This document shows, piece by piece, positions 15,368-30,039 of a DNA stretch of 30,039 nucleotides (position 1 is the first letter of the stretch; every line of letters begins with the position of its first letter). Location of the stretch: IMG/VR virus record IMGVR_UViG_3300048010_000241, positions 1 through 30,039 of that record; one strand, written 5' to 3'. The position numbers and the translations under genes are program-made. Below the pieces are notes generated by a model. The model saw only the letters and a program-made list of their open reading frames with translations, did not search any database and was not told where the DNA came from. Source of the DNA: a virus.

Positions 15368-17614
15368 TTATCTTATAATTTGGCTATAACTTCCCTTATT
15401 GTCATATCTTGCAAAGTTAAGTTTTATTTTTGATTTATTTTTAATGGGCTGGTAAAGTGATTTCTGATTAGCCATTACTGCTAACCCTGAACTTATAGAG
15501 GCATCAAACTTTGTTCTGTTGTTAATATTAAACCTAGCCCAATCCTCTAGTGTTCTGGTAAAATACATTGAACCCATCACATCGGAATCTCTAAAGCTCC
15601 CCAAAAAATCTAATCCCACGTGTTGTTCTATGTAAGATTCAATTGCTGCCGCGTGAGCTTGTTTTATGTCTTCGCTTGAATTTGGTATGCCTCCTAATTC
15701 TTTTTCAGATCCAGATAATTTGTTGTAAACACGATCTGGTCTGTTCATAGAATAACCTCTATATCCTCTATTTTTAAAATGATACAATAACCGAGGTTTA
15801 TTGTTTTCTATAAGTATAGGCATCCCATAAAACACACAAGCCATTAAAACATCTTCAAAAAATATTTCTGCTGTTTGCGGTCTAGCAATGTATTCTAAAA
15901 AAAATTCATTTGTAGGCCCCTCATCCATATGGAATTTAGTCATTCCGTGTAAAGCACCATTAGATCCTCCTCCTCCAACAACTCCTGATATATCATAACT
16001 GTCACATCCAAAGGCGCCCATATGCTCATTCCCTGGATAAGCTTTACCTTGCTTATATAGTTTTTTGTTTTGAAGCTGTTTGTTTGGAGTCCAAGTCACA
16101 TAAAACCTACCTCTATCATTAGGAGAAAATATCACCTCTGTATCTTTAACTCCATTTTTCCAAGAAAAAGAACCTCGTGTAATAAATTGATCTTTAATTA
16201 AAGATTCATTATAATCTATTTGTTGATATATTTTTTGTAGATTAAATAAAGATTGTTTGCTTTCGTCTCTGAAAGCGTGTGATTCTGATCTAGGAAATTG
16301 TCTATAAAACTCATTTAAAGCATCTGCATCATTTTTTAATGACTCCACTTCGTTTTCCCAATAATCAATAGCTCCTTGAGTTATTATATCTTTATATACA
16401 TCAATAGTTTTATCTTTGGGAGCATAAAATACTGGCATGCCGTACACATCAATAAAACCTTCCATATTCCATTCCATGGGTATAAACAATGAATATAAAC
16501 CGCTTTTGGTTTGACCGTTGGCGTTTCTATTATTTATATCAGAATCATAAAATAATTTTTTAAAAGAATCACCTCCTTTTTCTAATGAGTTCGATGTACT
16601 ACCCATCATACATTTTCCTATCACCTTACTACCTAATCTTAAACAAGTTTTTGTAACTCTCCAGTTGTTAAGAATGTTATTTGGCCTTTCCCATTTTCCT
16701 GATTCATCATGAACTAAAAGTTTAAGCTTTTCTCCATCATAACTATTATCTCCTGTATTCTTCCAATCAATAGTCGTATCTAATCCTTCAACTAAATCAA
16801 CTTCTTCGGAATACATATTTTTCTTAGTAATCTTTGAGGCGGGAACCCTAAATGCCAATTCAGTTTTTGGCTTGTCCATTCCATCTTGAACGGGTTTAAA
16901 GAAAAAGGGATAATTATTTGATATAGGAACAACTTTATCTGTAAACATTTTTTTAGCATCCGCCCCGGTTTTAGATAATATTCCAATTCTTGAATCTTTA
17001 GATATTGTTGCTATATTAGCACACTCTTCACTTCCCATATAAGAAAATCCTGAACGCCTAATTTTTAAATAACATATTCCAAAAGAACGAGAATCAGCTT
17101 TACAAGCTTCCCAATACAAATAGAACAACCTATTGGCTTCTCTAAAATTTGGGTATCCAACATCAATTTTAGTCCATTGTAAATACATATAATGAGATCC
17201 AGTAATGTAAGTTTTAATGCCATTGTTGTAAAACCAAAAACCTTCTTCTCTTCTGTCAAATTCTTTTTCTATATAATCAACCCATGTGTTTTTAAAAGAT
17301 GATGGCGCTTCGTGCCATTGAAAAATTGATTGAATTTTTTTAAGCTGTTTGGAGTACTCAAATCTTTCCCAATATTGATTTTTCTGGCTAGAGTCTCTTT
17401 TGTGTATTTTTGAAGGAGCTTTAGGCAAGGCAATTTTAAGTCCGTTAATTGAAACTATATTTTCAATTTGACCTGATTTTGAAATTACAACTACATCATA
17501 TTTTTCATTATATCCATAGCCCCATGATTTAGCTTTGTTTTTTACGCTAATCACACTTTTGGGAATAATATCTTTTAATTCCTTATATAAATTATGTTGA
17601 TCTTCTTTCTGCAA
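15368..17614 (-). CDS. terL: Terminase large subunit (packaging ATPase-nuclease)
   Basis: A 748-residue motor protein that pumps DNA into the head and cuts it. The N-terminal ATPase has an unusual Walker A-like loop, KIRRSGFSYMGS (184-195), in place of GxxxxGKT. Walker B is KLLVHDESGKW (298-308), with the catalytic Glu at 304. A coupling motif follows as MMGSTSNSLEKGGD (336-349). The nuclease half has an Asp cluster in FGCDSYDISG (535-544), with further acidic residues at EYIARP (574-579) and FFEDVL (585-590). The start at 17614 overlaps the upstream small gene by 23 bases, and the stop abuts the portal start. I favour this ATG because the overlap fits the coupling seen in the operon. Confidence 0.9.
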   Translation of the reverse strand: MQKEDQHNLYKELKDIIPKSVISVKNKAKSWGYGYNEKYDVVVISKSGQIENIVSINGLKIALPKAPSKIHKRDSSQKNQYWERFEYSKQLKKIQSIFQWHEAPSSFKNTWVDYIEKEFDRREEGFWFYNNGIKTYITGSHYMYLQWTKIDVGYPNFREANRLFYLYWEACKADSRSFGICYLKIRRSGFSYMGSEECANIATISKDSRIGILSKTGADAKKMFTDKVVPISNNYPFFFKPVQDGMDKPKTELAFRVPASKITKKNMYSEEVDLVEGLDTTIDWKNTGDNSYDGEKLKLLVHDESGKWERPNNILNNWRVTKTCLRLGSKVIGKCMMGSTSNSLEKGGDSFKKLFYDSDINNRNANGQTKSGLYSLFIPMEWNMEGFIDVYGMPVFYAPKDKTIDVYKDIITQGAIDYWENEVESLKNDADALNEFYRQFPRSESHAFRDESKQSLFNLQKIYQQIDYNESLIKDQFITRGSFSWKNGVKDTEVIFSPNDRGRFYVTWTPNKQLQNKKLYKQGKAYPGNEHMGAFGCDSYDISGVVGGGGSNGALHGMTKFHMDEGPTNEFFLEYIARPQTAEIFFEDVLMACVFYGMPILIENNKPRLLYHFKNRGYRGYSMNRPDRVYNKLSGSEKELGGIPNSSEDIKQAHAAAIESYIEQHVGLDFLGSFRDSDVMGSMYFTRTLEDWARFNINNRTKFDASISSGLAVMANQKSLYQPIKNKSKIKLNFARYDNKGSYSQIIR
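15412..15419 (-). promoter_or_regulatory. Possible intragenic -7 box (TAACTTTG) before portal
   Basis: Inside the end of terL the minus strand reads TAACTTTG, 44 bases before the portal ATG. It matches TAnnTTTG but also encodes Asn-Phe-Ala of TerL, and similar boxes occur inside other genes, so it may be chance. Confidence 0.2.
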
Positions 17615-29008: not shown

Positions 29009-29323
29009 TTATTTACCTCCTGTGTTACCTTTATTTTTTCTACCCTTACCTTTTTTTCCTCGTGCTCTTCTATCTCCAGGTGTATTTGTTTTACTGCCTC
29101 GATTTTTTTTCTCAGACTCTAAAACATATTTTCCTTTTCCCTTATGAGAAACATCTAAACCATCGTAGTTGCCATATGTACCTTTTCTTCGGTTTTCTCT
29201 ATTATCTGCAACTCTTTGCTTTATTGATTTCTTTTTTTTATTGTACTTACTTTGATAAGCATTGTGCTTTGCACGAGCCCTTTTATTTTTACGATAATAT
29301 TTTGCCGTTCTACTTAGGGCCAT
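29009..29323 (-). CDS. Very basic conserved phage protein, first gene of the late block
   Basis: A 104-residue protein with about one third Lys/Arg. It opens MALSRTAKYYRKNKRARAKH, then YQSKYNKKKKSIKQRV and NRENRRKGTYGNYDGLDVSH, and ends in a Gly/Lys-rich tail with PGDRRARGKKG. This 'YYRKN...AK..aY...YNkk' to 'GTYGN.DG.DvSH' to 'PGDRRARG' set is common in marine phages without assigned role; its charge suggests DNA or RNA binding. I choose the ATG at 29323, not the longer frame from 29383, because the conserved part begins there and the predicted -7 box lies 19 bases upstream. Confidence 0.75.
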   Translation of the reverse strand: MALSRTAKYYRKNKRARAKHNAYQSKYNKKKKSIKQRVADNRENRRKGTYGNYDGLDVSHKGKGKYVLESEKKNRGSKTNTPGDRRARGKKGKGRKNKGNTGGK

Positions 29324-29334
29324 TTTTAAAAAGT

Positions 29335-29350
29335 TATCTTTGCAAAGATA
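29335..29350. promoter_or_regulatory. Palindromic divergent promoter/operator TATCTTTG-CAAAGATA
   Basis: A perfect 16-bp palindrome made of one TAnnTTTG box on each strand. The plus box (29335-29342) is 21 bases before the regulator ATG (29364); the minus box (29343-29350) is 19 bases before the basic protein ATG (29323). It can act as two back-to-back -7 elements and, being symmetric, as a site for a dimeric repressor. Confidence 0.65.
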
Positions 29351-29363
29351 CAAATTTAATCTA

Positions 29364-29792
29364 ATGAAATTTTCACCAGCCAACGACTACTTAAAGTATT
29401 GGAAAGTTGTAAGACAATGGGCTAGATCAAAACATGGCCTATCAACTTCTGAAATTGAAATGCTATTATTTTTATATAGTGAAGGTTTATTTACAAGAAA
29501 AGATTTTCAAGAATATAATGAAATAATGTCTTGGGATAAAAGAAGGTTTAACAATCTTTTAAAAAATGGATGGATAATTAAATGGCGTGAAAGAAAAGGC
29601 CGTGAATCTATATTGTATGACCTGGCGTATAAAAGTAAGCGCGTATGCGCTTCGATTTATAAAAAATTAAATAAAGAAGAATCTATATCAGAAGATCGAA
29701 GAAACAATCCAATGTTTGTTAGCGGTACTAAATACAGCGATAAAGTTTATCGTAAGATAATAAAGAAAATGAACAATGAAAGAAAATCATAG
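29364..29792 (+). CDS. Winged-helix (MarR-like) putative regulator
   Basis: The only plus-strand gene, 142 residues. Helices at about 8-24 (DYLKYWKVVRQWARSKH) and 28-50 (STSEIEMLLFLYSEGLFTRK) plus a recognition helix around 55-69 (MSWDKRRFNNLLKNGW) and a wing at 70-88 (IIKWRERKGRESILYDL) give the MarR-type winged helix order. The next helix (YKSKRVCASIYKKLN) could join a dimer. Such proteins bind palindromic DNA as dimers. The gene lies 14 bases from a perfect palindrome, so control of its own and the late promoter is likely but unproven. I take the ATG at 29364 rather than 29340, which would start inside the -7 box. The end overlaps the GroES stop by six bases. Confidence 0.7.
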   Translation: MKFSPANDYLKYWKVVRQWARSKHGLSTSEIEMLLFLYSEGLFTRKDFQEYNEIMSWDKRRFNNLLKNGWIIKWRERKGRESILYDLAYKSKRVCASIYKKLNKEESISEDRRNNPMFVSGTKYSDKVYRKIIKKMNNERKS

Positions 29793-30039
29793 TACAACTA
29801 CTATATCTCTTTCTTGGATAATGCTTACCATTTCATCATTAAGCATCATCTTGTGTCCTGAGGCTTTGTCAAAATAAATTACATCCCCTTCTTTTACAAC
29901 ATCAACTTCAGTACCTGGGATAACTATCAAACCTTTTTTGTATCTTAGTTGGTTACTATCGTCTGACGTTAGTAAAATCCCTGAATCTGTTTTTTGTTGC
30001 TCAACAATTTCTGTAATTACAATATACTTACCTACTGCT
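29787..30039 (-). CDS. groES: Co-chaperonin GroES (cpn10), C-terminal part, cut by window edge
   Basis: An open frame enters at the right edge and stops (TGA) at 29787, giving 83 residues. It reads GKYIVITEIVEQQKTDSGIL, where TDSGILL fits the mobile loop that docks on GroEL. Then come KKGLIVIPGTEVDVVKEGDV, IYFDKASGHKMML and a final ERDIVVVL, the usual closing beta strand of GroES. Only the first few residues are missing. Phage co-chaperonins (T4 gp31 is the known case) replace host GroES so that GroEL can fold the capsid protein. Short phage-encoded GroES proteins of this form are common in marine phages. The gene end overlaps convergently with the regulator. Confidence 0.85.
   Translation of the reverse strand, partial: AVGKYIVITEIVEQQKTDSGILLTSDDSNQLRYKKGLIVIPGTEVDVVKEGDVIYFDKASGHKMMLNDEMVSIIQERDIVVVL

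Follow-up and report, generated by a model that had tools for sequence, protein, structure and literature searches.

A perfect palindrome of opposed -7 boxes as a probable bidirectional promoter beside a winged-helix gene of flavobacterial phages

The palindrome and its predicted promoter boxes

The locus described here raises the question of whether a single palindrome lying between two divergent phage genes serves as a promoter, as an operator, or as both at once. The stretch that was analyzed, hereafter the window, covers the 30,039 nucleotides of the IMG/VR record IMGVR_UViG_3300048010_000241 and is of the flavobacterial podophage type. Its terminase, portal and structural proteins match PHROGs 6681, 6547 and 13704, and its nearest relatives by terminase are the uncultured Caudoviricetes genome MW202828 and phages of Flavobacterium, Cellulophaga, Tenacibaculum and Maribacter. 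All credible genes of the window run leftward, with the exception of one gene encoding a protein of 142 residues. The features of the locus are as follows.

29335..29350, no strand: perfect 16-bp palindrome TATCTTTGCAAAGATA, read directly from the sequence; putative shared symmetric -7 element
29335..29342, plus strand: predicted -7 box TATCTTTG of the winged-helix gene; TAnnTTTG consensus, starting 29 nt before the ATG
29343..29350, minus strand: predicted -7 box TATCTTTG of the leftward late block; TAnnTTTG consensus, starting 27 nt before the minus-strand ATG
29364..29792, plus strand: winged-helix protein, 142 aa, MarR-like predicted fold (AlphaFold2, Foldseek, VIA-align, PHROG)
29009..29323, minus strand: basic protein, 104 aa, opening the leftward block (PHROG 6437)
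29787..30038, minus strand: GroES-like co-chaperonin, convergent with the winged-helix gene (Pfam Cpn10, PHROG 3188)

The palindrome is the single exact copy of TATCTTTGCAAAGATA in the record and sits between the minus-strand ATG (29323-29321) and the plus-strand ATG (29364-29366). An earlier sequence-only reading had described it as two opposed -7 boxes placed at 21 and 19 bases from the divergent start codons; the palindrome is real, and direct reading of the gaps between box ends and ATGs reproduced both distances exactly. Shuffling of the window, whose GC content is 34%, yields 0.97 perfect 16-bp palindromes where 2 are present. The perfection of the repeat was therefore rejected as evidence by itself, about one being expected per window. 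The other of the two, ATCTTTAATTAAAGAT, lies within the terminase gene (16190-16205). The pattern TAnnTTTGCAAAnnTA, corresponding to two head-to-head -7 boxes, is expected 0.01 times and is present once, at the divergent start. In most of some 150 related phages this element, or a loosened version of it, stands at the front of the operon for the same putative DNA-binding protein, which marks it as a control point under selection and not as a palindrome arisen by chance.

In Flavobacterium psychrophilum the sigma-A box has been mapped as TAnnTTTG and occupies positions -12 to -5 (PMC9723704). Both boxes of the palindrome match this consensus, and transposition of the mapped position predicts that transcription begins near 29347 toward the right and near 29338 toward the left. 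The other TAnnTTTG boxes that precede genes in these phages peak at 28-31 nt before the ATG, and the boxes of the head-to-head pair, found at 27-31 nt, match this peak, so that both opposed boxes stand at the usual promoter-to-ATG distance. The phage boxes differ from the published sigma-A promoter (PMC9723704) in that they abut head to head and in that no clear conserved -33 element of the TTG type was seen on either side among 53 aligned exact sites, a comparison confounded by flanking coding constraint.

We consider it probable, on the evidence of the sequence, that the sigma-A RNA polymerase of the Bacteroidota host uses the palindrome as a symmetric bidirectional promoter. The same 16 bp offer the consensus box TATCTTTG on each strand, which would permit the polymerase to bind in either orientation and to start at two points about 10 bp apart. 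The leftward start would drive the basic-protein gene opening the structural block, the rightward start would drive the winged-helix gene, and both boxes would be used; the genes are placed on either side accordingly, with ATGs at 29323 and 29364. Since the boxes abut completely, only one polymerase at a time could open the site, and the expression of the two units would be tied together.

A perfect inverted repeat may also be read as an RNA hairpin, a terminator or a recombination site. This is extremely improbable, as the repeat has neither loop nor T run, is intergenic between divergent starts, and varies among relatives in spacing and arms as promoter boxes would. Moreover, with each predicted transcript beginning within the repeat, neither RNA would contain the whole of it.

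The winged-helix protein and its neighbors

The 142-aa protein was modeled by AlphaFold2 as a confident winged helix (pLDDT 87.5), and MarR-type chains head both the Foldseek and the VIA-align lists obtained with this model. VIA-align scores reach Z 9.8, with an rmsd of 3.5 over 110 residues, and Foldseek gives E-values of 6e-4 to HsmR and 1e-3 to MarR at a moderate TM of about 0.47. The sequence matches PHROG 17028 and, weakly, PHROG 12817 'transcriptional regulator' (1e-3), whereas the Pfam search returned no family, and no MarR match at E up to 1. The models thus support a winged-helix fold of the MarR type with moderate confidence, and the label 'MarR-like fold' is a fair one. Assignment to the MarR family would go beyond the sequence matches, which include no Pfam MarR model and of which only PHROG 12817 points that way. 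The earlier description of a MarR-like plus-strand protein beside the palindrome stands as regards the predicted fold and the sole credible rightward gene.

The 104-aa basic protein shares 55% identity with gp46 of the elemo phage, which stands in tandem with the winged-helix gene of that phage. This left-hand gene (window 29009-29323; elemo gp46, 2512-2781 of locus L321) remains the neighbor of the winged-helix gene while the order flips between divergent and tandem across phages. In the complete relative MW202828.1 (40229-43803), the winged-helix gene is the lone rightward gene inside a leftward block, a rightward replication block begins about 3 kb beyond it, and the boxes are back to back, not head to head.

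Conservation, spacing and symmetry among relatives

Relatives of the winged-helix gene were retrieved by protein-based searches, resulting in 148 non-redundant loci. Retrieval was independent of DNA within each clade; some search seeds, however, came from palindrome-bearing loci, and exact sites are consequently overrepresented in the set as a whole through the choice of clades. A head-to-head pair of the form TAnnTTT(G/A)N(0-6)CAAAnnTA is found directly upstream of the winged-helix gene in 119 loci, against 0.3% of shuffled upstream regions, and ATG-started frames flank the pair on both sides in 113 of these 119. Nine further relatives carry the pair at the divergent head of an operon made of a small gene and the winged-helix gene. 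Eight of them form the L283 clade and display TATCTTTACAAAGATA; the ninth is the cultured Maribacter phage Panino, where the exact 16-mer (2610-2625 of locus L320) lies between a leftward gene and an operon of the basic-protein and winged-helix genes. Two other loci, L071 and L107, similarly have the element at the head of the winged-helix operon. Conservation of the palindrome in relatives keeping the gene had been proposed as a test of the earlier reading, and the outcome is mixed: the opposed pair is kept, directly or at the operon head, in 128 of the 148 relatives, while the exact palindrome lies directly upstream in only 53 (54 with Panino).

The left-hand partner gene varies by clade and the element stays. 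Several unrelated left genes adjoin the exact palindrome, and a tie of the palindrome to the adjacent left gene was accordingly rejected. In several deep clades all 16 bases are kept without exception (33 of 33 rows). A tree-based count of palindrome origins is loose, as it relies on 116 columns and leaves many forks unresolved.

The two boxes are not equally preserved. In many relatives the rightward box reads TTTA instead of TTTG, for which reason rightward activity may be weak there. The search pattern itself requires an intact minus box, which all 119 pairs thus possess, and most loci with a degraded plus box have one too; several of the remaining loci likewise keep the leftward box while the rightward one is broken or displaced. 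Survival of the minus box beside a degraded plus box (L011, L273, L274, L343, L358, L457) would be expected of an ordinary leftward late promoter in which neither the palindrome nor the rightward box has a role of its own. We regard this explanation as unlikely, given that the plus box keeps the customary distance to the winged-helix ATG and that head-to-head boxes occur in only about 1 in 100 of the divergent pairs not heading a winged-helix operon. The latter figure derives from the same contigs, where head-to-head boxes are present in 52 of the 61 divergent pairs including the winged-helix gene and in 6 of 106 other pairs, five of the six being winged-helix operon heads; the pairs were taken from naive gene calls, spurious frames included.

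The spacing between arms varies as well: among the 119 loci it is 0 bp in 77, 1 in 4, 2 in 13, 3 in 12, 4 in 3, 5 in 9 and 6 in 1, and the arms are unequal in 24 of the 77 loci at spacing 0. If the boxes act as promoters, each should be conserved independently of the other. The sequence-only reading had placed a dimeric repressor site over both -7 elements, promoter and operator being the same bases. The promoter half of this proposal is borne out by the opposed boxes, their usual distance to the ATGs and their retention in relatives. The repressor half is not supported as it was put, since a rigid dimer operator should not tolerate spacings of 0-6 bp, unequal arms and a degraded plus box. With the regulator-side box decaying first, these sequence patterns fit a bidirectional sigma-A promoter better than such an operator.

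In MarR-type autoregulated divergent operons, the regulator is transcribed away from a palindrome common to the divergent operon. The phage winged-helix gene is likewise transcribed away from such a palindrome, but its product has no Pfam MarR match, its binding is putative and the arm spacing varies among relatives. A one-site switch, where this protein would dimerize on the palindrome and repress both promoters, the -7 boxes being the operator bases, is a possibility that we rate at less than even. It draws on the MarR-like predicted fold and on the 16 bases held throughout several deep clades. Against it, the arms are often unequal, the unchanged palindrome of the exact sites goes with 22 different versions of the protein's recognition-helix region, and the protein is retained with no such box pair within the roughly 3 kb examined in phi38:1 and in the elemo phages, whose homologous gene pair is in tandem. 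The one-site switch and the bidirectional promoter are not mutually exclusive, and the confidences given to them need not total one.

Specificity for the winged-helix operon

The exact 16-mer occurs at 114 places in IMG/VR, 83 of them in loci carrying the winged-helix gene. In a first scan of the 114 stretches the gene was a direct neighbor in 80; when adjacency was defined more strictly and a broader profile was used, it was the neighbor in 61, and a further 22 had it at another position of the locus. This operon specificity, together with the fact that the element stays at the front of the operon in rearranged gene orders, speaks for the one-site switch. The form with 3 additional bases between the arms, TATCTTTGnnnCAAAGATA, is equally gene-specific (39 stretches, 30 with the winged-helix gene), a tolerance that a rigid dimer would not allow. 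The TA/TA palindrome, built from the commoner box, has the winged-helix gene nearby in just 5 of 120 sampled stretches.

Boxes elsewhere in these phages are mostly TATATTTG (46-50%), TATCTTTG amounting to about 25%, yet the clades with an exact palindrome hold TATCTTTG on both arms. This preference also counts in favor of the one-site switch. Something beyond the need for any -7 box seems to favor TATCTTTG at the winged-helix operon; both the preference and the fully kept 16 bases would be accounted for if the protein were involved, or if selection kept a strong box on each strand. It is conceivable, though rather doubtful, that the protein reads the same TATCTTTG half-sites as RNA polymerase. 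The same 16 bp would then double as a pair of promoters and as the operator of a late-gene switch under autoregulation, the regulator vying with sigma for each base, and many flavobacterial phages would share this conserved element. In relatives, the phage groEL genes mostly have TATATTTG as their promoter box, in contrast to the TATCTTTG that forms the arms of the palindrome. A comparison of box dinucleotides between winged-helix and groEL promoters within palindrome-selected loci was attempted, and its winged-helix side was discarded as circular.

The TATCTTTG arms, invariant in several clades, might instead mark the operator of a host regulator or of another phage regulator that overlaps the promoters by happenstance. 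This is very unlikely, as the element tracks the winged-helix operon and not other operons, and Bacteroidia chromosomes seldom contain an exact copy (4 of 149 genomes, the seed genome included). Among the matches listed, and without a control, most exact genome matches bear Bacteroidota titles. The looser form TANNTTTGCAAANNTA occurs about 117 times in 60 Bacteroidia genomes against 51 for the backward-read control, i.e. about twofold. With this modest excess and the rarity of the exact 16-mer, a general Bacteroidota bidirectional promoter was set aside as weakly supported. In a few of the Bacteroidia genomes (G002, G041, G023) TANNTTTGCAAANNTA is present 8-14 times and its backward-read control 0-2 times, a hint that symmetric -7 elements may be in use in some hosts.

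Relation to known bidirectional promoters

Symmetric bidirectional promoters, described by Warman, Grainger and colleagues in E. coli and on Salmonella plasmids (PMC12825309, PMC10268837), are established in E. coli, where a pseudo-symmetric core is read both ways by polymerase engaged in two orientations. The divergent starts are 18, 10 or 23 bp apart (PMC12825309), and the 10 bp predicted from box position for the phage palindrome falls within a reported class. One binding event excludes the other at such promoters, and the same is proposed for the phage palindrome. Since basal transcription was too low for polymerase competition in the five E. coli cases tested (PMC12825309), mutual exclusion between the two directions at the palindrome, as well as any timing, is what we infer from its geometry. 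As a predicted promoter, the phage element differs from these in using the Bacteroidota -7 box in place of the -10 hexamer, in occurring in a phage, in its perfect symmetry over 16 bp and in its tie to one gene family across wide divergence.

A literature search, in which few subscription journals were covered, found no published description of the element. Bidirectional promoters have been described from proteobacterial -10 elements, and the phage palindrome would be their counterpart built, with full symmetry, from the Bacteroidota -7 box. The exact element is present in a cultured phage, Maribacter phage Panino, and the dozens of natural variants in spacing and symmetry would make the rules of two-way initiation directly testable.
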